Below, in pieces: positions 1-46,257 of a stretch of DNA of 54,025 nt (within the stretch, counting starts at the first letter, position 1; each line of letters begins with the position of its first letter). The DNA comes from a virus: positions 1-54,025 of the IMG/VR virus record IMGVR_UViG_3300008448_000113; one strand, written 5' to 3'. The notes beneath the pieces are model-generated. The model saw only the letters and a list, made by a program, of their open reading frames with translations. It was not told where the DNA came from and did not search any database. A program made the position numbers and the translations under genes.

Positions 1-590
1 CCCATCGGAGTCATAGGGTCATCGGGATCTACGGGTCCAACGGGTGCAACGGGACCACAAACAATCACTGGAACCGCGGGTGTGCAGGGAGTTAGTGGTG
101 TTGCGGGTACTGCTGCGACGGGTGTACAAGGACCAACCGGACCTGTAGGTTCTACCGGACCAACGGGACCGTTGGGATATTCGGGTTCCACGGGCGTACA
201 GGGTATTACAGGTGTTACAGGGTCTACTGGACCATTAGGTTCAACAGGTCCAACGGGTGCAACAGGTGCGATAGGTCCGAGTGGACGGCAAGGAATTCAA
301 GGTATTACCGGTGTGATTGGTGTAACCGGTCCTTCTGGAGATATCGGTCCAACTGGACCCATAGGAATAACCGGACCAACTGGAGTAGGCCCCGCTGGGT
401 CAACTGGCCCTGTGGGAGAATCGGGACCGATAGGATCACAAGGAATTAGAGGAGCAACTGGACCTACCGGTGCGGCAGGACCATCGGGAAGTACAGGACC
501 AAACACATTCGGTGGTGCGGGAATTTCTGGACCAACGGGTGCAACGGGTGTCATCGGTGTAACAGGTCCAACAGGTGCACAAGGACGAAC
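1..590 (+). repeat. Collagen-like G-x-y coding repeats
   Basis: Tandem, degenerate 9-base periodic coding repeats give Gly at every third residue, dominated by GPTG, GSTG and GATG units. Such repeats form triple-helical shafts in viral and bacterial collagen-like proteins. Confidence 0.8.
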
Positions 591-1785
591 GGTATATTAT
601 GTTACCGGTGTTTGTGCGGCGGTCCACGCAAATGCAACCACAACGCATACCGACACAACAGTATATCACAGTGATACGTCAACTCCACATGGTAATTCTG
701 TTGCACATTCCAACATAACCATCGCAGGGTCACACGCTAATATCGCTGCATCACACACAGATTCAACAGCACATACGAACGCAACTACTACACACGGTGA
801 TGGTACCACAACGCACACAAATAGTAGTATTGCGTTTACAAACACGACTGCTCATAGTAACATTTCACCATCGCATAGTGATATTATCACTCACACAAAT
901 ATTTCCACAATTCACGGAGATGGTACACCACATACTAATATTGCGGCATCACACGCAAATGAAGCTGCGGTTTCACATACAGATAGTGCAACGCATTATG
1001 ATGGTGCTACGGAATTTGTTAATATTACCACACACTTCGATGTAGACCCATCACACGTAGATGGAGTACCTCACACAAACGTAAGTCCATTTCATGCAGA
1101 TGAAGCACCATCACATTCAAATTACGCAGCATCGCATGCAAATATCGCAGGTAATCATACCGATACAACCAATTTACACATAGATTACTATCTTGGTATT
1201 GACCCTGTTACGCACGGTGATACTCCTGCTAGTCACGCAGATATCACATCACCACATACAAATTATGCAGTACCGCATTCCGATGGGACTTCAAATCATT
1301 CAGATATAACAGTACCGCATTCCGATATCACAACGCATGCAAACACATATAGTACTCATTATGATCAAATAGCACATCAAGATACTGTAGCAAGTCATGC
1401 AAACTTTGTTGATCATTCTGATATCGTTGCTATACCACATTCCAATGAAACAACAAACTTTACAAATAGTGTTGTGCATACGGATATTCCTGCAACACAT
1501 ACTAATATTGCATCGCATGATGATATTACCATAACTCACACGGATATTGTGACACATACTAATATTACAGCGACTCACACCAATATAACGCCGTCACATG
1601 CAAATATATCTCCGTCGCATGCAAATGCAACACCACATACAAATATCAATATATCGCATGACGATATTACTATTACTCCAAGTCATACTAATGCAACACC
1701 ACACACAAATATTACCACCGCACACTCAAATGTAGCAGCATCGCATTCAAATGTCGCGGCATCACATTCGAATTCTACCACGTAA
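1..1785 (+). CDS. Collagen-like / [H/F]-x-[N/D] repeat tail fibre protein (5' truncated)
   Basis: The reading frame is open from base 1, so the start lies upstream; at least 594 residues are present. The first ~195 residues are collagen-like G-x-y triplets rich in GPTG and GSTG, as in many phage fibres. The rest, from about base 625, is a long array of short units carrying His-x-Asn or His-x-Asp (SHTD, AHTN, SHAN), about one per 6-8 residues, with occasional FVN or FTN in place of the His unit. No enzymatic domain is seen. By analogy with collagen-like phage proteins it is probably a fibrous virion adhesin; the His repeat array is not a family I can name. It is followed 5 bases later by a second collagen-like gene, and the repeat type recurs at 2680-5289. 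A GTG at 82 could be mistaken for the start, but repeats continue upstream of it. Confidence 0.75.
620..1776 (+). repeat. [H/F]-x-[N/D] repeat array, first fibre gene
   Basis: Degenerate coding repeats of roughly 18-27 bases encode His-x-Asn/Asp units separated by small or beta-branched residues (A, S, T, I, V, P). DNA identity between units is low while the His and Asn/Asp positions are kept, which points to selection on the protein. In some units Phe replaces His with Asn retained. Confidence 0.8.
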
Positions 1786-1790
1786 TCATT

Positions 1791-2639
1791 ATGCCACGTT
1801 TTTTTCCGCTTGGTACACCAACTACCGCTAGTATAGCCAAAGCAGCATTATTTGCGTTTACTGCAAGTATTGCTTTAAACGCAAATGTACTCACTGCATC
1901 ATTTGCTTCGGGTTCTGTTGGTGTGATGGGAGTTGGAGGACCAACCGGTCCACGAGGACCAACAGGAATATCTGCTTCTGGGTCCACTGGACCGACCGGT
2001 GCAACTGGACCAACGGGACCGGCAGGTGTAGGACCAACGGGACCGTCCGGTGTGATAGGAATAACGGGTATTACAGGAACCACAGGACCAACAGGATCTA
2101 CGGGTCCAACCGGTGCAACGGGACCAACCGGACCAACTGGAATAGTCGGTATTACAGGACCAGTTGGTCCAACGGGTATTGGGTCATTAATATCGGGAAG
2201 TACTGGTGTACAAGGTTCTACGGGAGCAACAGGTCCAACAGGTACACGAGGTGCAACGGGAGTAACAGCGGGTGTCATTGGTATTACTGGTGCTAGTGGA
2301 TTGGCAAATATTATTGGTCCTACGGGACCGGTAGGAGCAACAGGACCTACTACCATCGGTGGAACAGGACCAACCGGACCACAAGGGTCTGCAGGACCAG
2401 TTGGACCAACGGGACCGAGTGCAGACGCACCATTAACAGGTTCGTTGGGTGTTGGAGGTATTACGGGAATTCAAGGACCAACCGGAGCACAAGGTATTCG
2501 TGGAGCAGACGCAGGATGTCCAGCAGGAACCGTAGTATGTACGGGGTTATCCCCATCCAATACATCATTGTATGGATTGGTATGTGCAACATTACCAACT
2601 GGATGTGGTGGTAGTTTTACATGCCCACCGACAATCTAA
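1791..2639 (+). CDS. Collagen-like fibre protein with Cys-rich C-terminus
   Basis: This is a 282-residue protein. An Ala/Thr-rich N-terminal segment (about residues 1-45) precedes a collagen-like G-x-y shaft (about 45-240) rich in GPTG and GATG. A short C-terminal domain (about 243-282) contains six Cys residues and could form a disulfide-stabilised tip or trimerisation unit; that is inference. The ATG is six bases after the stop of the preceding fibre gene, so the two are probably co-translated. It lacks the [H/F]-x-[N/D] array of its neighbours. It is most likely a second virion fibre or a short fibre attached to the first; no specific receptor-binding fold can be recognised. Confidence 0.75.
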
Positions 2640-2679
2640 ACTACTTATATAAGATAAATTGATTACATCGGAGTGATAA

Positions 2680-5289
2680 ATGCCAAAAGCACCAGGCAGT
2701 GTATGGGTAAGTGGAACAGAATTTCATTTTGTCGATAATACGGGTGTAGAATACTACTATATCGGTACATCGGTAGGAACTCCTGCCGGTGCAGTGCCTG
2801 GTTCTATTTGGGTCGATAGTAGTGATTTTCATTATATCGATTCGTCGGGAACGGATAGATTAATTGCAAGTACCGACTTAGGAGCAGTATCAGGAGCACG
2901 ACCAGGATCAGTTTGGGTAGAAAGTACTTTTTGGAATTGGATATCATCGGGTACAAATAAAAGAAGAGGACACACTGATGTTGCTGCAAGTCATACCGAT
3001 TTAACAACTCCCGCCGCACATACAAATGCAACTACCGCATTTGTTAATTCTACTATACCCGCATCACATACCGATGGTACTACAGCTCACACCGATGCAA
3101 CTACCACGGCATCACATAGTGATGCCACTACAACACATACGGATTTAACTACCCCCGCATCGCATAGTGATGGTACAACCCCTCATAGTGACGGAACAAC
3201 CCCCGCATCGCACAGCGATGGTACCACACCACATAGTGATGCCACAACAACTGCGTCGCACAGTAATGCAACAACACCTCACAGTGACGGTACAACCCCT
3301 GCGTCACACAGTAATGCAACAACTGCACATAGTGACGGTACAACTCCTGCATCACACAGCAATGCAACAACTGCATTTGTTAATTCTACAATAACAGCAT
3401 CGCACAGTAATGCAACAACAGCATTTGTCAATTCCACCGTACCTGCATCACATAGTGACGGAACAACTCCACATAGTGATGCTACCACACCAGCATCGCA
3501 TAGCGATGGAACAACTCCGCATAGTAACGCCACAACAACTGCTTCACACAGTGATTTAACAACACCATTTGCTAATTCTACCACACCAGCGTCGCATAGT
3601 GACGCAACTACAACATTCGTTAATTCCACAATACCTGCATCACATAGTGACGGAACAACTCCACATAGTGATGCTACCACACCAGCATCGCATAGTGATG
3701 CGACGACATCACATAGTGATGCTACAACACCCGCGTCGCATACAAATTATGCAACGCATTCTAATATAAGTACTCCACATGCAAATGCCGCATCGTCGCA
3801 TAGTGATTTCGCATCACATTCAAACGTGGCAGCTTCACATGGAAACGTAACCGGACATGCAAATACAGCTGCATCACATACCAATTATGCAACACATGCC
3901 AATGCCCCATCGTCGCACGCTAATATTATAGCACACTCAAATCAAGCGGCAAGTCATACTAATTATGCTACACATGCAAATGAAGCACCTACACACACTA
4001 ATTATGCAATACACGCAAACACACCAGCCGATCATAGTAATACGTACACCCAACACGGAAATACTCCAGGAAGTCATTCCGATACAACTATTATTCACGT
4101 AGATTATTATTTTGGTTTTCCAGAAGAAGCTCACGGAGATGTTCCGGCCAGTCATGCAGACACTTCGATAACACACGACGATGGGCCAGCGTATCATAGT
4201 AATTATGCAGCACCTCATTCAAATTATGCATTACATGGTGATGATACAATCTTCCATTCGGATGATGCATCGCATGGTGACGATACAATCTTCCACACAA
4301 ATTATGCAACGCACGATGATTCTACAAATCCCCACACAAATTATGCAACGCATGGGGACGATACAATCTTCCACACAAATTATGCATCACACACAAACTC
4401 ATCTGATCCTCATGCAAATATCATAAATCATTCTGACGGAACTACACCACATGCAAATACTTCCCCGTCACATGGAAATCAAACACCGCATGGTGATGCA
4501 ACAACCAACCCAAGTCACACCAATATCAGTCCTTCGCATTCGGATGGAACAACACCGGCAAGTCACGCGAATATTGTAGCATCACACTCAGATATAACTA
4601 TAAATTCAAGCCATACAGATATTGCGGCATCACATGCAGACGCAACAACGAATCCAAGCCACACGGATGTTTTGGCATCACATACGGATGGAACAACACC
4701 AGCAAGTCATTCAAATATTAGTCCATCGCATGCAGACGCAACAACTAATCCGAGTCATGCAAATATTAGTCCATCGCACTCGGACGCAACAACGAATCCA
4801 AGCCATACTAACATTGTTGCATCGCACTCCGATGGAACAACACCGGCAAGTCATACAGATATTGCTGCGTCACATTCCAATGCAACAACGCCAGCAAGTC
4901 ATGCAAATATAGCATCTGCACACACCAACGCAACCACAAGTCCAAGTCATGCAAATATTACCCCGGCACACACCAACGCAACCACAAGTCCAAGTCACGC
5001 AGATATTGTCGCATCACATTCTGATGCGACAACACCGGCAAGTCACGCGGACATCGTTGCTTCGCACTCGGATGGAACAACCCCCGCAAGTCACACAGAT
5101 ATTGCCGCATCACACTCTGACGGAACAACACCGTCGAGTCACGCAAATATCGCAGCATCACATTCCGATATAACCATTAACCCAAGTCATACAGATATTG
5201 TTGCATCACACGCGGACGGAACAACCAATCCAAGTCACAGTGATGGAACTACGGTGCACAGTGACCAACCTGTACTTGTTGGGGCTTGA
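2680..5289 (+). CDS. Large [H/F]-x-[N/D] repeat fibre/adhesin protein
   Basis: This is an 869-residue protein. The N-terminal ~95 residues hold three related units of about 30-35 residues with a PGSVWV-type core (residues about 5-10, 39-44 and 74-79), perhaps an attachment domain. The rest, to near the C-terminus, is an uninterrupted array of units such as ASHSDGTTP, with His-x-Asp/Asn on the order of a hundred times. In several units Phe replaces His while Asn is kept (FVN, FAN). A non-repeat island around residues 465-490 resembles one in the first fibre gene (DYYFG versus DYYLG, followed by a conserved HGD-x-PASHAD run), so the two genes share a layout. It is followed by a promoter and a radical SAM/SPASM gene that may modify it. 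Virion fibre is the best guess; metal binding by the His array is an alternative. Confidence 0.75.
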   Translation: MPKAPGSVWVSGTEFHFVDNTGVEYYYIGTSVGTPAGAVPGSIWVDSSDFHYIDSSGTDRLIASTDLGAVSGARPGSVWVESTFWNWISSGTNKRRGHTDVAASHTDLTTPAAHTNATTAFVNSTIPASHTDGTTAHTDATTTASHSDATTTHTDLTTPASHSDGTTPHSDGTTPASHSDGTTPHSDATTTASHSNATTPHSDGTTPASHSNATTAHSDGTTPASHSNATTAFVNSTITASHSNATTAFVNSTVPASHSDGTTPHSDATTPASHSDGTTPHSNATTTASHSDLTTPFANSTTPASHSDATTTFVNSTIPASHSDGTTPHSDATTPASHSDATTSHSDATTPASHTNYATHSNISTPHANAASSHSDFASHSNVAASHGNVTGHANTAASHTNYATHANAPSSHANIIAHSNQAASHTNYATHANEAPTHTNYAIHANTPADHSNTYTQHGNTPGSHSDTTIIHVDYYFGFPEEAHGDVPASHADTSITHDDGPAYHSNYAAPHSNYALHGDDTIFHSDDASHGDDTIFHTNYATHDDSTNPHTNYATHGDDTIFHTNYASHTNSSDPHANIINHSDGTTPHANTSPSHGNQTPHGDATTNPSHTNISPSHSDGTTPASHANIVASHSDITINSSHTDIAASHADATTNPSHTDVLASHTDGTTPASHSNISPSHADATTNPSHANISPSHSDATTNPSHTNIVASHSDGTTPASHTDIAASHSNATTPASHANIASAHTNATTSPSHANITPAHTNATTSPSHADIVASHSDATTPASHADIVASHSDGTTPASHTDIAASHSDGTTPSSHANIAASHSDITINPSHTDIVASHADGTTNPSHSDGTTVHSDQPVLVGA
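2974..5262 (+). repeat. [H/F]-x-[N/D] repeat array, second large fibre gene
   Basis: Tandem degenerate coding repeats, often 21, 24 or 48 bases long, encode HSDGTTPAS-like units. Some adjacent units are near identical in DNA, implying recent expansion or recombination. Others differ at most synonymous positions, implying selection on the protein pattern. Confidence 0.8.
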
Positions 5290-5314
5290 CAAATAGTTAA
5301 CTTAGTAGTATATT
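5286..5314 (+). promoter_or_regulatory. Sigma70-like promoter before radical SAM gene
   Basis: TTGACA at 5286-5291 and TATATT at 5309-5314 are separated by exactly 17 bases, starting inside the last codons of the fibre gene. The initiation point would be about 25 bases upstream of the radical SAM start. Confidence 0.7.
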
Positions 5315-5346
5315 AAAGTTTGATTCATTAAAAGAGGTTTTATTAT

Positions 5347-6648
5347 ATGACAATTGAGTTAGAACCAGTTGGAGTAGTATGTAATTTAAGTTGTCCATAT
5401 TGCTATGAACATCCGATGCGTGATGCTGGAAACTTTCGGCATAAAACGTATAGCGTCGAAAAGATGTTACAGGGATTGGAACGTGAGGGTGGTCACTTCA
5501 CATTATTTGGTGGTGAACCATTATTAACGGATATTGACGATTTAGAAACCATTTTTAAATGGGGATACGAACGTTACGGTGGTAACGGTATCCAAACAAA
5601 TGGTACGTTAATAACCGAACGTCATATTGAAATGTTTAAAAAATATAAAGTGCACGTGGGTATTTCCGTGGACGGACCAGATGATATGAATGATACTCGT
5701 TGGGCTGGTTCCTTGGAAAAGACACGGGAATCCACACAGAAGTCCATGCATGCTATCAAACGATTGCTGGATGAAAAAATGTCAATGGGTATTATTATTA
5801 CTGTCCATAAAAAGAATGGATTGCCCAAGTATAGAGAACGATTTAAAAATTGGATTCGGGAATTAAAATCTTGGGGAGCAGACGGCGCACGATTACATCC
5901 GTTGGAAGTTGATCATAGTGCTGTTGGTGAGACGTTGGCATTGTCGTCTGAACAAAATATAGAATTTTTGTTGGACATGTGGGAATTTGAAATTTCCGAA
6001 TTGAAGGGAACATTTACCTTTGATATTTTCCGTGACGTAGATTATATGATGCGTGCAGCGGATAATAGTGCAACGTGTACATTCTTGGCATGTGACCCAT
6101 ACACAACACACGCAGTACAGGGAATTGATTCACAAGGTAATCAATCAAATTGTGGTCGTGGTAATAAAGACGGTATCAATTGGATTAAAGCCCAATATGA
6201 CGGATTTGAACGACAAATGGCATTGTATCACACCCCAGAAGAACATGGTGGTTGCCAAGGATGTAGATTCTTTGTAATGTGTAAGGGGCATTGTCCGGGT
6301 ACTGGATTGGATATGGATTGGAGAAATAAACCAGATTCGTGTCTAAGTTGGAAAGTTTCATTTGGTATTTATGAAAAGTTGATGTTGAAACGAGGTGAAA
6401 CACCGTTATCATTACATCCAGACTTAAAGAAATACGAAGAGTTAATGTTACACGGATTCAGCCGTGGGGTTGAATTACGTTTGTCTCAAATCAAAAAACA
6501 TTTGGAAACGGGATATAATCTCGACGCATATATAGAAGCAACATTGGAAAACATGAGACGAGGATTTCCAAAACCACACGCCGACCACACAGATAATACA
6601 GGCAAATATAAACAAGAGTATTTTGAGAAGTACGGTATAGAACTTTAA
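5347..6648 (+). CDS. Radical SAM/SPASM protein-modifying enzyme
   Basis: This 433-residue protein has the radical SAM [4Fe-4S] motif CxxxCxxC at C12, C16, C19 and a GGEP motif at 55-58. A SPASM-type cluster region follows with Cys at 244, 249, 269, 303, 306, 312, 316 and 332. SPASM enzymes usually modify ribosomal peptides or proteins (sactipeptides, cyclophanes, sulfatase maturation). No small precursor peptide is evident. Immediately upstream are fibre genes with hundreds of His-x-Asn/Asp sites, so those repeats are the inferred substrate. The C-terminal tail carries HADHTDNTGKY (411-421), a motif that occurs twice in the next gene. The ATG follows an AAGAGG site, and the gene has its own promoter. 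An anaerobic sulfatase-maturase-like role is an alternative, but no sulfatase is visible. Confidence 0.85.
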   Translation: MTIELEPVGVVCNLSCPYCYEHPMRDAGNFRHKTYSVEKMLQGLEREGGHFTLFGGEPLLTDIDDLETIFKWGYERYGGNGIQTNGTLITERHIEMFKKYKVHVGISVDGPDDMNDTRWAGSLEKTRESTQKSMHAIKRLLDEKMSMGIIITVHKKNGLPKYRERFKNWIRELKSWGADGARLHPLEVDHSAVGETLALSSEQNIEFLLDMWEFEISELKGTFTFDIFRDVDYMMRAADNSATCTFLACDPYTTHAVQGIDSQGNQSNCGRGNKDGINWIKAQYDGFERQMALYHTPEEHGGCQGCRFFVMCKGHCPGTGLDMDWRNKPDSCLSWKVSFGIYEKLMLKRGETPLSLHPDLKKYEELMLHGFSRGVELRLSQIKKHLETGYNLDAYIEATLENMRRGFPKPHADHTDNTGKYKQEYFEKYGIEL

Positions 6649-6666
6649 AACATAAGAGGATATGTT

Positions 6667-7050
6667 ATGGAAAACGGAATATTACACGCAGACCACATTG
6701 ACGAAACTGGTGCATACGCACGACGATTTCAAGTTGTTAAGGAGTTGGTAGACAATGGAACATTGACACAAATTCCAGAAGAATTTCGTGTAGGTGCAAC
6801 CGCATTATCACAGCAGGAAGTAGTTCCTGTTACACAAGAAAATTCCAAATTTTCATTTTATGATGAGTTTGGTCAAAAGCACGCAGACCACGTAGATGAA
6901 ACGGGTGAGTATCGTAAAGCATGGGAATCCATGTTTGGTCCTATGAACGGGGATAATAATGTATCATCCGAAGATACTCCTGCAAATACCGAATGGAAAT
7001 CGTTCCTACAACAGTTAATTGCAGAAGAAAAAGCAAAACTCAATATTTAA
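6667..7050 (+). CDS. Small protein with two HADHxDxTGxY motifs
   Basis: This is a 127-residue protein of unknown family, 18 bases after the radical SAM gene and preceded by an AAGAGG site. It contains HADHIDETGAY at residues 7-17 and HADHVDETGEY at 72-82, each followed by a positively charged, aromatic segment. A version of the same motif ends the radical SAM protein. It could be a substrate, a recognition partner or a scaffold for that enzyme; nothing in the sequence decides between these. The motif echoes the His-x-Asp units of the fibres. No signal peptide or membrane segment is seen. Confidence 0.65.
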   Translation: MENGILHADHIDETGAYARRFQVVKELVDNGTLTQIPEEFRVGATALSQQEVVPVTQENSKFSFYDEFGQKHADHVDETGEYRKAWESMFGPMNGDNNVSSEDTPANTEWKSFLQQLIAEEKAKLNI

Positions 7051-7066
7051 TTTTAACCCAAAGGTT

Positions 7067-8539
7067 ATGCAACGTTTAAATAGTGTATTACCAGATTGGA
7101 CACGAATACAGTGGACCAACATGGAAAATAAAATAAAGTATGGTCCAATTTTAAATTCCATAACACATGCGTGGAAACAAATTGAACGAATGTCTGTTGT
7201 ACACGATTTACGATCCTGTACATTAGATAGTATTAGTTCCACGGAACTTATAGCACTGACAGAAGAATACAAGAAATACGGTGTGTACATTGTTCCATTG
7301 GCAAAGGAAGGAATAACACACACATATTCTTCTACAACACAACCATATATTAACGGTAAACCCTATCGTTTGCGTGTGGTGTTTACAAAGTCGGAAGAAC
7401 TGGCACAAGAATTTTTCACGGTGTGGAATGCACCGGTGCTGGATAATTCCCGAATTGGTGAACTTCTTGGGTATCCAAAGTGTTGTACCGATTTTTATAA
7501 AAAGTATTGGGTTGATCAACGATTTGTAGATACTACGTGGGTAATGTCGGTTGATAAATTACCAATTGACGAAGAGGCACGAACCGTACATATTAAATCC
7601 GACACACCACCAGAATGTAATATTTTGTGGCGTTGGCAGGGTGTACGATTGGTTTCGCATTTACCATGTTCATTTGATTGTGAACATACGGTTGATATTG
7701 GTAGACGAAATGCAGAACTTGGACGTAAACTTGGATTCAATGCTGAAATGGATTTGGCATACGAGTTGTTGACTTGGCCTGTGGAATGGTCTGCGTTACA
7801 CGGTATTGCGGAAATTAAAACGCCAATCAACAAAGTATCCTCACGTACAGATATGACACCGTGGAAATACACAGTACAAAAACATAGTGATATGTATCCA
7901 GAAGATGGCGCATCGGGTACCATGTATCCGTACACAGAAAAGAAACTCAAGATTAAACCAATAACTACAACTAAGTCGTTTTTGAAATCACTTGAAGATA
8001 CATCTGTTTGGGAAGAAAACGGATTCCGTTACAAGGAAGCAATGGATCATTTTCACGAAGTGGTAGTTGAAGCAATTGGTAATATGAAGTATGTACCTTC
8101 GGGTAATGTCCTTGACCTTGGTTGTGGTAATGGTGTATTGTTAGGTCGTGTTGTTGGAGACAGAGCAGACTTAATTCCACATGGTGTTGAAATGGACCGT
8201 CAACGATGTATGTCGGCAGCAACCACTATCCATTGGGGATATTTCACGTTGGGTAATATATTCGACCTCAATACATGGAAGGAAGATTATTATAGTATGG
8301 TGCTGTTGATGCCAGGACGTTTGATGGAAACTGCAAAAGAAACGGCAGAGGCATTCAGAAAACAATTATACGATAAGACAGACTTACTACTTATTAATCT
8401 GACATGTGATTGGACTGTTAAGTATAAGACTATCGATAATATGATGGTGTTAACCGGTCTAGACAAAGATTGGGAACCGGCTGGTCCTGTTGTACATAGA
8501 AAGGATGATGTCGCTCAATTATTTAAGAGGAAAGTGTAA
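7067..8539 (+). CDS. CC-motif (DUF483-like) protein fused to class I methyltransferase
   Basis: The product is about 490 residues if it starts at the ATG at 7067, which has an AAAGG site just upstream; a TTG at 7019 would overlap the preceding gene. Around residues 130-145 an LGYPKCCxxFY stretch resembles DUF483-type proteins of unknown function. The C-terminal third has a Rossmann methyltransferase motif I (LDLGCGNG, near residue 349) and an acidic GVEMD segment, as in class I SAM-dependent methyltransferases. It sits in the radical SAM cluster, so protein or small-molecule methylation linked to fibre modification is possible. The substrate is unknown. The methyltransferase half is secure; the N-terminal assignment is tentative. 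Confidence 0.65.
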   Translation: MQRLNSVLPDWTRIQWTNMENKIKYGPILNSITHAWKQIERMSVVHDLRSCTLDSISSTELIALTEEYKKYGVYIVPLAKEGITHTYSSTTQPYINGKPYRLRVVFTKSEELAQEFFTVWNAPVLDNSRIGELLGYPKCCTDFYKKYWVDQRFVDTTWVMSVDKLPIDEEARTVHIKSDTPPECNILWRWQGVRLVSHLPCSFDCEHTVDIGRRNAELGRKLGFNAEMDLAYELLTWPVEWSALHGIAEIKTPINKVSSRTDMTPWKYTVQKHSDMYPEDGASGTMYPYTEKKLKIKPITTTKSFLKSLEDTSVWEENGFRYKEAMDHFHEVVVEAIGNMKYVPSGNVLDLGCGNGVLLGRVVGDRADLIPHGVEMDRQRCMSAATTIHWGYFTLGNIFDLNTWKEDYYSMVLLMPGRLMETAKETAEAFRKQLYDKTDLLLINLTCDWTVKYKTIDNMMVLTGLDKDWEPAGPVVHRKDDVAQLFKRKV

Positions 8540-45437: not shown

Positions 45438-45444
45438 GGATTTG

Positions 45445-46257
45445 ATGGAACAATCCTATGTCAACACTTCCCGTGTTACAGTGAGAGAAATCAGTAAAGC
45501 TGTAGCACGGGAGTTTGTGCAGAAACATCACTACACTCGTAAGTTTAGTTCTACCAGATATGCACTCGGTGTCTTTTATAAAGAGGATTCCGACCATATG
45601 TTTTTTTCTGGTGATAATGAAACACTCATTGGGTGTATGACATATGGACACCCTGTTAGTAATCGAACGGTGGATAGTATCGCAGATGGAATTCAACTAG
45701 ATGAAGTATTGGAACTAACTAGATTGGTATGTTTGGATGGGTATGGTAAAAATCTAGAAAGTTATGTGATTGGTCAATCGTTTGAATGGTTGAAGAAAAA
45801 TGATACACGGGTAAAAGTCTTGGTCAGTTACGCAGATCCAGAACAATCGCATACTGGTGGAATATATCGTGCAACAAACTGGTTGTATCAAGGGTGTGGA
45901 GCATCGAAGTTAATGCCAGACTATTCTATAAAATTGGAAGAAACTGGTATGTGGATACACTCACGAACCGTTAGTGCAAAATTTGGTAATAAATCTATAG
46001 AAAACCTTGCTAGGGTAATCGGTCATACATTCTGGCGGAAGGAGGAAACTTCCAAGCATCGTTATATATATTTTCTATGTAATAAAAAAGAAAAGAAATA
46101 CTTATTAACAAGACTTAAAATGCCTATTATTGATTTTAAGAATACGAAACCCGTAGTACAATTAATACAAAAGGTTTGGGTCAAGGATAACACGGTTGAT
46201 AGTATTGAAGTCTTGCAGGGTGTAGACAATGGATGGAAACCACAAAATTATATATAA
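45445..46257 (+). CDS. Mom-like DNA-modification protein, copy 2
   Basis: This is a 270-residue protein from ATG 45445, with TGAGGA upstream; an adjacent TTG at 45442 is less likely. VQKHHYTRKFSS, LIGCMTYGHPVS, LELTRLVCLDGYGKNLESYVIGQSFEWL and LVSYADPEQSHTGGIYRATNWLYQG repeat the Mom-family blocks seen at 39604-40188. The C-terminal ~100 residues are extra and basic. It has no Com-like gene upstream. Confidence 0.75.
   Translation: MEQSYVNTSRVTVREISKAVAREFVQKHHYTRKFSSTRYALGVFYKEDSDHMFFSGDNETLIGCMTYGHPVSNRTVDSIADGIQLDEVLELTRLVCLDGYGKNLESYVIGQSFEWLKKNDTRVKVLVSYADPEQSHTGGIYRATNWLYQGCGASKLMPDYSIKLEETGMWIHSRTVSAKFGNKSIENLARVIGHTFWRKEETSKHRYIYFLCNKKEKKYLLTRLKMPIIDFKNTKPVVQLIQKVWVKDNTVDSIEVLQGVDNGWKPQNYI

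Follow-up and report, generated by a model that had tools for sequence, protein, structure and literature searches.

Three-residue cyclophane-forming enzymes (3-CyFEs), such as XncB, OscB/GrrM, MscB, YxdB, HaaB and YhhB of the triceptide systems, are radical S-adenosylmethionine (SAM)/SPASM proteins that join an aromatic residue i to residue i+2; known links run from Trp or Phe to the C-beta of Asn or Asp, from Tyr to the C-beta of Asp, or from C2 of His to the C-beta of Ala or Arg (PMC11002830). Their known substrates, short precursors of ribosomally synthesized and post-translationally modified peptides (RiPPs), carry a single motif or a few. Here we describe an analysis of IMG/VR record IMGVR_UViG_3300008448_000113 (54 kb; this whole stretch of DNA is called the window), annotated as a tailed phage whose replication genes are T4-like and whose baseplate protein is of the T4 type. 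Two of its fibre genes encode long arrays of aromatic-x-Asn/Asp motifs, and the second is followed by a radical SAM/SPASM gene. The locus resembles the 3-CyFE systems in enzyme class, in the aromatic residue placed two positions before its partner, in the use of Asn/Asp, whose C-beta is documented to accept the bond from Trp, Phe or Tyr, and in the use of His as the aromatic residue. In contrast to those systems, the predicted substrates are structural proteins of a phage, and their motifs number as many as about 100. We conclude that the module likely makes heavily cross-linked fibre proteins by means of aromatic-to-Asp/Asn cyclophanes.

Fibres A and B were singled out in a preliminary description of the window for long arrays in which His precedes Asn or Asp by two residues, and the counts agree: Asn or Asp stood at +2 after all 150 His residues of the two arrays. 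Fibre A contained 57 [H/F]-x-[N/D] motifs, 53 of them with His, and fibre B contained 102, of which 97 had His; shuffled sequences of the same composition gave means of 8.9 and 14.6 motifs and maxima of 17 and 25, respectively. The replacement of His by Phe with retention of Asn was also remarked upon in that description; in the array regions, 9 of the 17 Phe residues had Asn or Asp at +2, and none of the 21 Tyr residues did. The reported spacing of about once every seven residues was correct as an average, because the spacing alternates between 6 and 7 or between 7 and 9.

The same rule was found across the arrays of other genomes. Among 118 nonredundant arrays, Asn or Asp occupied position +2 after 97.5% of His, 38.9% of Phe, 30.2% of Tyr and 20.5% of Trp residues, and after 2–9% of each of the sixteen other residues; the value for His is partly guaranteed by the way arrays were selected, whereas those for Phe, Tyr and Trp are not. 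When fibres were aligned with their orthologues, Asn/Asp was kept in 156 of 160 cases in which Phe, Tyr or Trp took the place of His, and in 25 of 108 cases in which any other residue did so (pairwise, non-independent counts). Positional information around His, calculated from 112 nonredundant arrays, peaked at +2 with 1.97 bits, the next best position having 0.57, and in these arrays the motif spacing was mostly 3 to 10 and differed between groups. As judged from these sequences, the motif constraint is local and requires an aromatic side chain, and is therefore of the kind needed for three-residue cyclophane chemistry, whereas neither a fixed repeat fold nor the binding of metal would call for it. 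The enrichment and the substitutions thus support the earlier view that the constraint is aromatic-x-Asn/Asp and not metal binding alone.

Two explanations that leave the motifs unmodified can be weighed against these data. In the first, the arrays would bind metal or simply be shaft repeats of low complexity, and some other purpose would be served by the radical SAM gene. His/Asp-rich sequence is able to bind metals, and His-x-His iron sites are present in the tips of T4 long tail fibres; but Phe, Tyr and Trp replace His while Asn/Asp stays, for which reason a metal-binding array was rejected, unrelated phages have the array and the enzyme together in a nearly one-to-one fashion, as do many bacteria, and the motif is present in enzyme tails. 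We consider this explanation very unlikely. In the second, the spacing would reflect a repeat fold, either a trimeric coiled coil or a beta-solenoid, with His and Asn/Asp as structural positions, as the alternating spacing in the window and the coiled-coil type H-A-D heptads of some unrelated fibres might suggest. It is extremely improbable, because the spacing varies with the group, the strong information lies at +2 alone, which led us to reject a coiled-coil or solenoid register, and the heptad-type arrays tested were without the enzyme.

To follow arrays and enzyme independently, IMG/VR was scanned, blind to the enzyme, with DNA patterns for spaced H-x-[N/D] codons; genuine arrays among the hits were separated from coiled-coil heptads and simple tandem repeats, and a profile of the enzyme family was then run against the whole records. 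The family enzyme was present in 57 of 66 genuine-array records (10/12, 43/50 and 4/4) and in none of 63 control records, two of which gave weak generic matches (Fisher p ~4e-27, a value that overstates independence because the records are related; the tree nevertheless contains many deep lineages). The split was made partly by eye: with the automatic array criterion alone the count is 57 of 72, and the six records set aside by eye, all simple tandem repeats or coiled coils, had no family enzyme. Metagenomic contigs are fragments, and virtually every enzyme locus having enough flanking DNA carried arrays; in the 110 loci with both, the distance was 200 bp or less in 88 and the strand was the same in 108. 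A spurious co-occurrence was rejected on the basis of the enzyme-blind scans and the controls. The preliminary description had asked whether such fibres consistently occur without a radical SAM gene and whether other phages carry both; the first proved to be the opposite of what is seen in most array-bearing viral records, and such phages were indeed found, among them the Thermus phages phiLo, phiMa and Cumys. The locus thus has the nearby predicted substrate with aromatic-x-X3 motifs, X3 often being Asn or Asp, that is expected of a triceptide maturase, and the enzyme very probably acts on the fibre motifs.

Two further observations were made in these scans. Three related arrays with the repeat HNDT[T/S]FVNSHTDT (L335, L343 and L384), in records of 6–30 kb, were without the enzyme; they are possibly truncated, or a variant served by another enzyme. 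In the coiled-coil-like tail-fibre heptads THADVVL (L040, L047 and L087), H-A-D arises from the heptad register and the family radical SAM gene is absent, which makes them a trap for motif-only searches.

The window enzyme belongs to the radical SAM/SPASM superfamily (Pfam PF04055, 2.1e-16) and has both the CX3CX2C motif and the SPASM Cys set; CX3CX2C and the full set of eight SPASM Cys residues were invariant in a 42-row alignment. Searching IMG/VR yielded 23 close loci and, with a profile, further ones, and scanning GTDB genome contigs yielded 80 loci, 69 of them with a family enzyme. Members are now recognized in the three Thermus phages, in more than 50 other viral contigs and in these 69 bacterial loci (Acidobacteriota, Bacteroidota, Myxococcota, Pseudomonadota, Actinomycetota, Bacillota, Chloroflexota, Planctomycetota and others), and their scores are well apart from those of generic radical SAM proteins. 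In a tree of 107 nonredundant members, the window enzyme fell in a phage clade of seven rows, and 48 of 49 bacterial rows were united, with moderate support, in a single group nested among those of phages. Models for known cyclophane maturases (XyeB, GrrM, FxsB, YhhB, AmcB and DynA) gave the window enzyme best scores of 42–77 bits against cut-offs of 310–450, and its relatives behaved likewise; because the scores are under all curated cut-offs, we assign it to none of the named maturase families, although it appears to work like them. Radical SAM genes are also present in Campylobacter phages (PMC2853527), but kinship with these was rejected, since none were among the tblastn matches of the window enzyme.

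The His-Xaa-Ser system (HxsA/B/C/D) also has His-x-residue repeats beside radical SAM genes; it differs in having Ser as X3 and two dedicated radical SAM proteins, where X3 in the window is Asn or Asp throughout. No Hxs model was among the 25 NCBIfam matches listed for the window enzyme, and HxsB was marginal (2.4e-5) in one relative.

The closest named relatives are those of the Thermus thermophilus phages phiLo, phiMa and Cumys, with 48–51% identity over about 390 residues (46–51% when all comparisons are taken together), deposited as hypothetical, sulfatase regulator or radical SAM proteins. All three phages share with the window the family enzyme, H-x-D array proteins and a DUF483 gene that follows. 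In phiMa and Cumys the gene directly upstream encodes a fibre that has 53–54 H-x-D/N motifs and shares a related N-terminal module with fibre B, whereas in phiLo three array genes lie 4–10 kb from the enzyme. The arrays of all three differ from those of the window in having a motif spacing of 4–5 and almost exclusively Asp. No claim of fibre modification was seen in the accessible part of the paper reporting phiLo and phiMa (PMC6452258).

The fold of the enzyme was compared with solved structures by use of an AlphaFold model (mean predicted local distance difference test score, pLDDT, 85.6). Two best matches were tied, the anaerobic sulfatase-maturating enzyme (anSME) anSMEcpe (Z 27.4, root-mean-square deviation 3.2, 328 residues) and ChlB (Z 27.1, root-mean-square deviation 3.0, 324 residues), followed by a sactipeptide maturase (Z 22.9). 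ChlB is described as a radical SAM multiple cyclophane synthase, and the HExxH partner in ChlBH hydroxylates Asp and His in a reaction that depends on a preinstalled cyclophane (PMC12636437). As predicted for the window system, ChlB acts on several motifs per substrate, and an HExxH beta-hydroxylase stands beside or is fused to members of the window family; unlike it, the window enzyme, only 17% identical to ChlB, has a DUF483-methyltransferase protein as its partner and a predicted fibre, not a peptide, as its substrate. An alpha-ketoglutarate-HExxH peptide beta-hydroxylase is fused to the family enzyme in Nannocystis (L286; TIGR04267, 4.9e-23) and, by motif, is adjacent or fused in about 33 of the 69 bacterial loci. 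TIGR04267 was above its cut-off in 4 of 37 array-phage records; the window, one of the records searched, gave no match. In addition, Bradyrhizobium relatives adjoin a RiPP radical SAM C-methyltransferase (TIGR03975).

Because of the ChlB fold, the HExxH hydroxylases, the known scope of 3-CyFEs and the Bradyrhizobium TIGR03975 neighbour, a cyclophane from C2 of His to C-beta of Asp or Asn is our best prediction, and the product is probably a cyclophane. By analogy, the described 3-CyFEs together cover every aromatic side chain seen in the arrays, and the statement in the preliminary description that His-containing motifs are substrates of this class is documented (C2 of His to Ala or Arg; PMC11002830). 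The same analogy had led it to connect enzyme and fibres, a link for which co-occurrence, the aromatic rule, the substitutions, the C-terminal tails described below, the ChlB fold and the HExxH partners now argue, the chemistry being predicted.

Alternatively, the enzyme could modify H-x-[N/D] by another radical reaction: oxidation at C-beta, as carried out by anSME on Cys or Ser, epimerisation, or a link from a His nitrogen to C-beta. Oxidation of the anSME type is the main chemical rival because the fold match is equal; the SPASM cluster arrangement is the same, anSMEcpe is also the best NCBIfam match below cut-off, and the association of enzyme with substrate holds independently of the chemistry. 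We nevertheless regard a different reaction as unlikely. Simple oxidation or epimerisation of Asp/Asn needs no aromatic residue at −2, yet His, Phe, Tyr and Trp are uniquely enriched there; hydroxylases of the kind that act after cyclophane formation co-occur; and a thioether variant is countered by the composition of the window arrays, which contain no Cys. The window enzyme differs from anSME proper as well, scoring 80 bits against the TIGR03942 cut-off of 349 and thus falling outside that family, and no sulfatase was found among the annotated window open reading frames (ORFs). anSME acts on one Cys or Ser in a motif of the CxPxR type.

In the cyclophane mechanism that we propose, the enzyme would use SAM and a [4Fe-4S] cluster to abstract a C-beta hydrogen of Asp/Asn in H/F/Y/W-x-[N/D] motifs, and the radical so formed would bond to the ring of the aromatic residue at −2. 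Each motif would thereby lose 2 H and acquire one three-residue cyclophane. Up to about 159 motifs would be treated across the two fibre proteins of the window phage, and such treatment would turn a shaft that lacks a hydrophobic core into a string of rigid rings resisting unfolding and proteases. That the enzyme staples each motif into a small ring is most likely because enzyme and arrays co-occur so consistently in phages and bacteria. Whether the rings serve to stiffen the fibre, as composition, the position among tail genes in Cumys and analogy suggest, seems to us evenly balanced. We lean towards the broader view that these are a widespread and previously undescribed class of poly-cyclophane structural proteins, in which phage fibre shafts would be dozens to a hundred enzyme-made three-residue rings, rigid without a conventional fold, and to which bacteria would contribute large repeat proteins and small precursors.

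Several points weigh against the cyclophane proposal. The counts are taken over related sequences and are non-independent, and nine of the 66 array records, fragments of 4.6–29.7 kb, have no enzyme gene in the sequence available. Some bacterial members, such as those of the Bradyrhizobium loci, do not obviously have an array next to them. The family is uncurated, the window enzyme and its relatives being under the cut-off of every NCBIfam model, and anSME, an equally close fold, does not make cyclophanes. The accessible literature documents no cyclophane from His to Asp or Asn as a product of this family. To complete about 100 modifications per chain before lysis would be demanding, the more so as oxygen harms radical SAM enzymes.

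In the literature searched, most subscription journals being outside its scope, there was no report of radical SAM chemistry on phage fibres, and we know of no viral structural protein with a RiPP-type radical post-translational modification. If the proposal is correct, virions would be assembled with such chemistry, and the rigidity, heat stability and protease resistance of tail fibres could come from covalent cyclophanes instead of trimeric folds. RiPP maturases would be linked to a structural role, and an uncurated radical SAM family would gain a clear substrate rule, aromatic-x-Asn/Asp. A natural enzyme apparently processing about 100 sites per chain would be useful for making stiff protein polymers. 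Since phiMa and Cumys are grown on T. thermophilus HB8, they make the proposal directly testable.

The genes concerned form a cassette in the first 8.5 kb of the window (Table 1): fibre A, a collagen-like protein, fibre B, the radical SAM/SPASM enzyme, a 127-aa protein and a DUF483-methyltransferase protein. The enzyme ORF directly follows the second array gene, as first described, with 57 bases after the fibre B stop (previously given as 58); the enzyme's HADHTD tail, the small protein and the DUF483-methyltransferase gene are additions to that description. Neither fibre B nor the small protein had a convincing match in Pfam, PHROGs or NCBIfam. In 16 or more divergent array proteins a conserved N-terminal module of PGS[V/I]WV-type repeats comes before the array; it may serve to attach the fibre to the virion or to be recognized by the enzyme.

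Table 1. Positions of the cassette features in the window
Feature	Position	Strand	Remarks
Fibre A	1-1785	+	Truncated 5' by the window edge; Gly-X-Y part of collagen type, followed by array ~625-1773; proposed substrate
Collagen-like protein, 282 aa	1791-2639	+	Between both fibre genes; array-free
Fibre B, 869 aa	2680-5289	+	N-terminal module, then array ~2971-5265; proposed substrate
Fibre B N-terminal module	~2692-2970	+	Three PGS[V/I]WV repeats; 38-40% identical to Thermus phage fibres
Radical SAM/SPASM enzyme, 433 aa	5347-6648	+	CX3CX2C 5380-5403; SPASM CX2CX5CX3C 6253-6294; proposed cyclophane synthase
HADHTD, two H-x-D motifs in enzyme C-terminal tail	6577-6594	+	Predicted disordered
Small protein, 127 aa	6667-7050	+	Two conserved HADH[I/V]DETGxY motifs, 6685-6702 and 6880-6897
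Fusion of DUF483 and class I SAM-dependent methyltransferase domains	7019-8539	+	GYPKCC 7469-7486; conserved partner of enzyme

The motif recurs outside the fibres. Two or more H-x-[N/D] motifs were present in the C-terminal tail of 51 of the 93 enzymes with a short tail, often of the form HGDSPHGDSHGDHTD, and H-x-[N/D] accounted for 276 of 348 His residues in the tails of family enzymes and 82 of 976 in the core. The small protein carries HADHIDETG and HADHVDETG, both conserved in relatives, as is its position between the enzyme and the DUF483 gene. Going by these shared motifs, the enzyme probably either modifies its H-x-D tail and the small HADHxDETG protein or uses them for docking, and the small protein could possibly be an adaptor or a minor substrate. 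DUF483 is adjacent to or near the enzyme in many relatives, and several bacteria have an equivalent domain fused to it, in ORFs some 700 aa long; the DUF483 domain that travels with the family has an invariant GxPxCC motif. In the window this protein adds a class I methyltransferase fold (solved-structure matches with Z up to 15.8). No solved fold was found for the DUF483 part, the model matches being limited to the C-terminal methyltransferase domain, so that DUF483 was barely probed. As a whole, the DUF483-methyltransferase protein probably assists maturation as an accessory factor.

Some phages have tandem pairs of family radical SAM genes (L025, L340, L345, L372 and L391 records), and some of these tandem enzymes bear H-G-D-H-T-D tails with up to 19 motifs. 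Among the bacterial loci (L252–L320), the family enzyme stands beside small H-x-D precursors (L256, L270 and L284) or large proteins with H-x-D C-terminal tails (L264 and L286); these loci, often with the alpha-ketoglutarate-HExxH hydroxylase, appear to be an unnamed RiPP-like family. Elsewhere in the window, a Mom-like DNA modification gene (45442–46257; phrog_1384, 5e-49) suggests that the virion DNA is modified.

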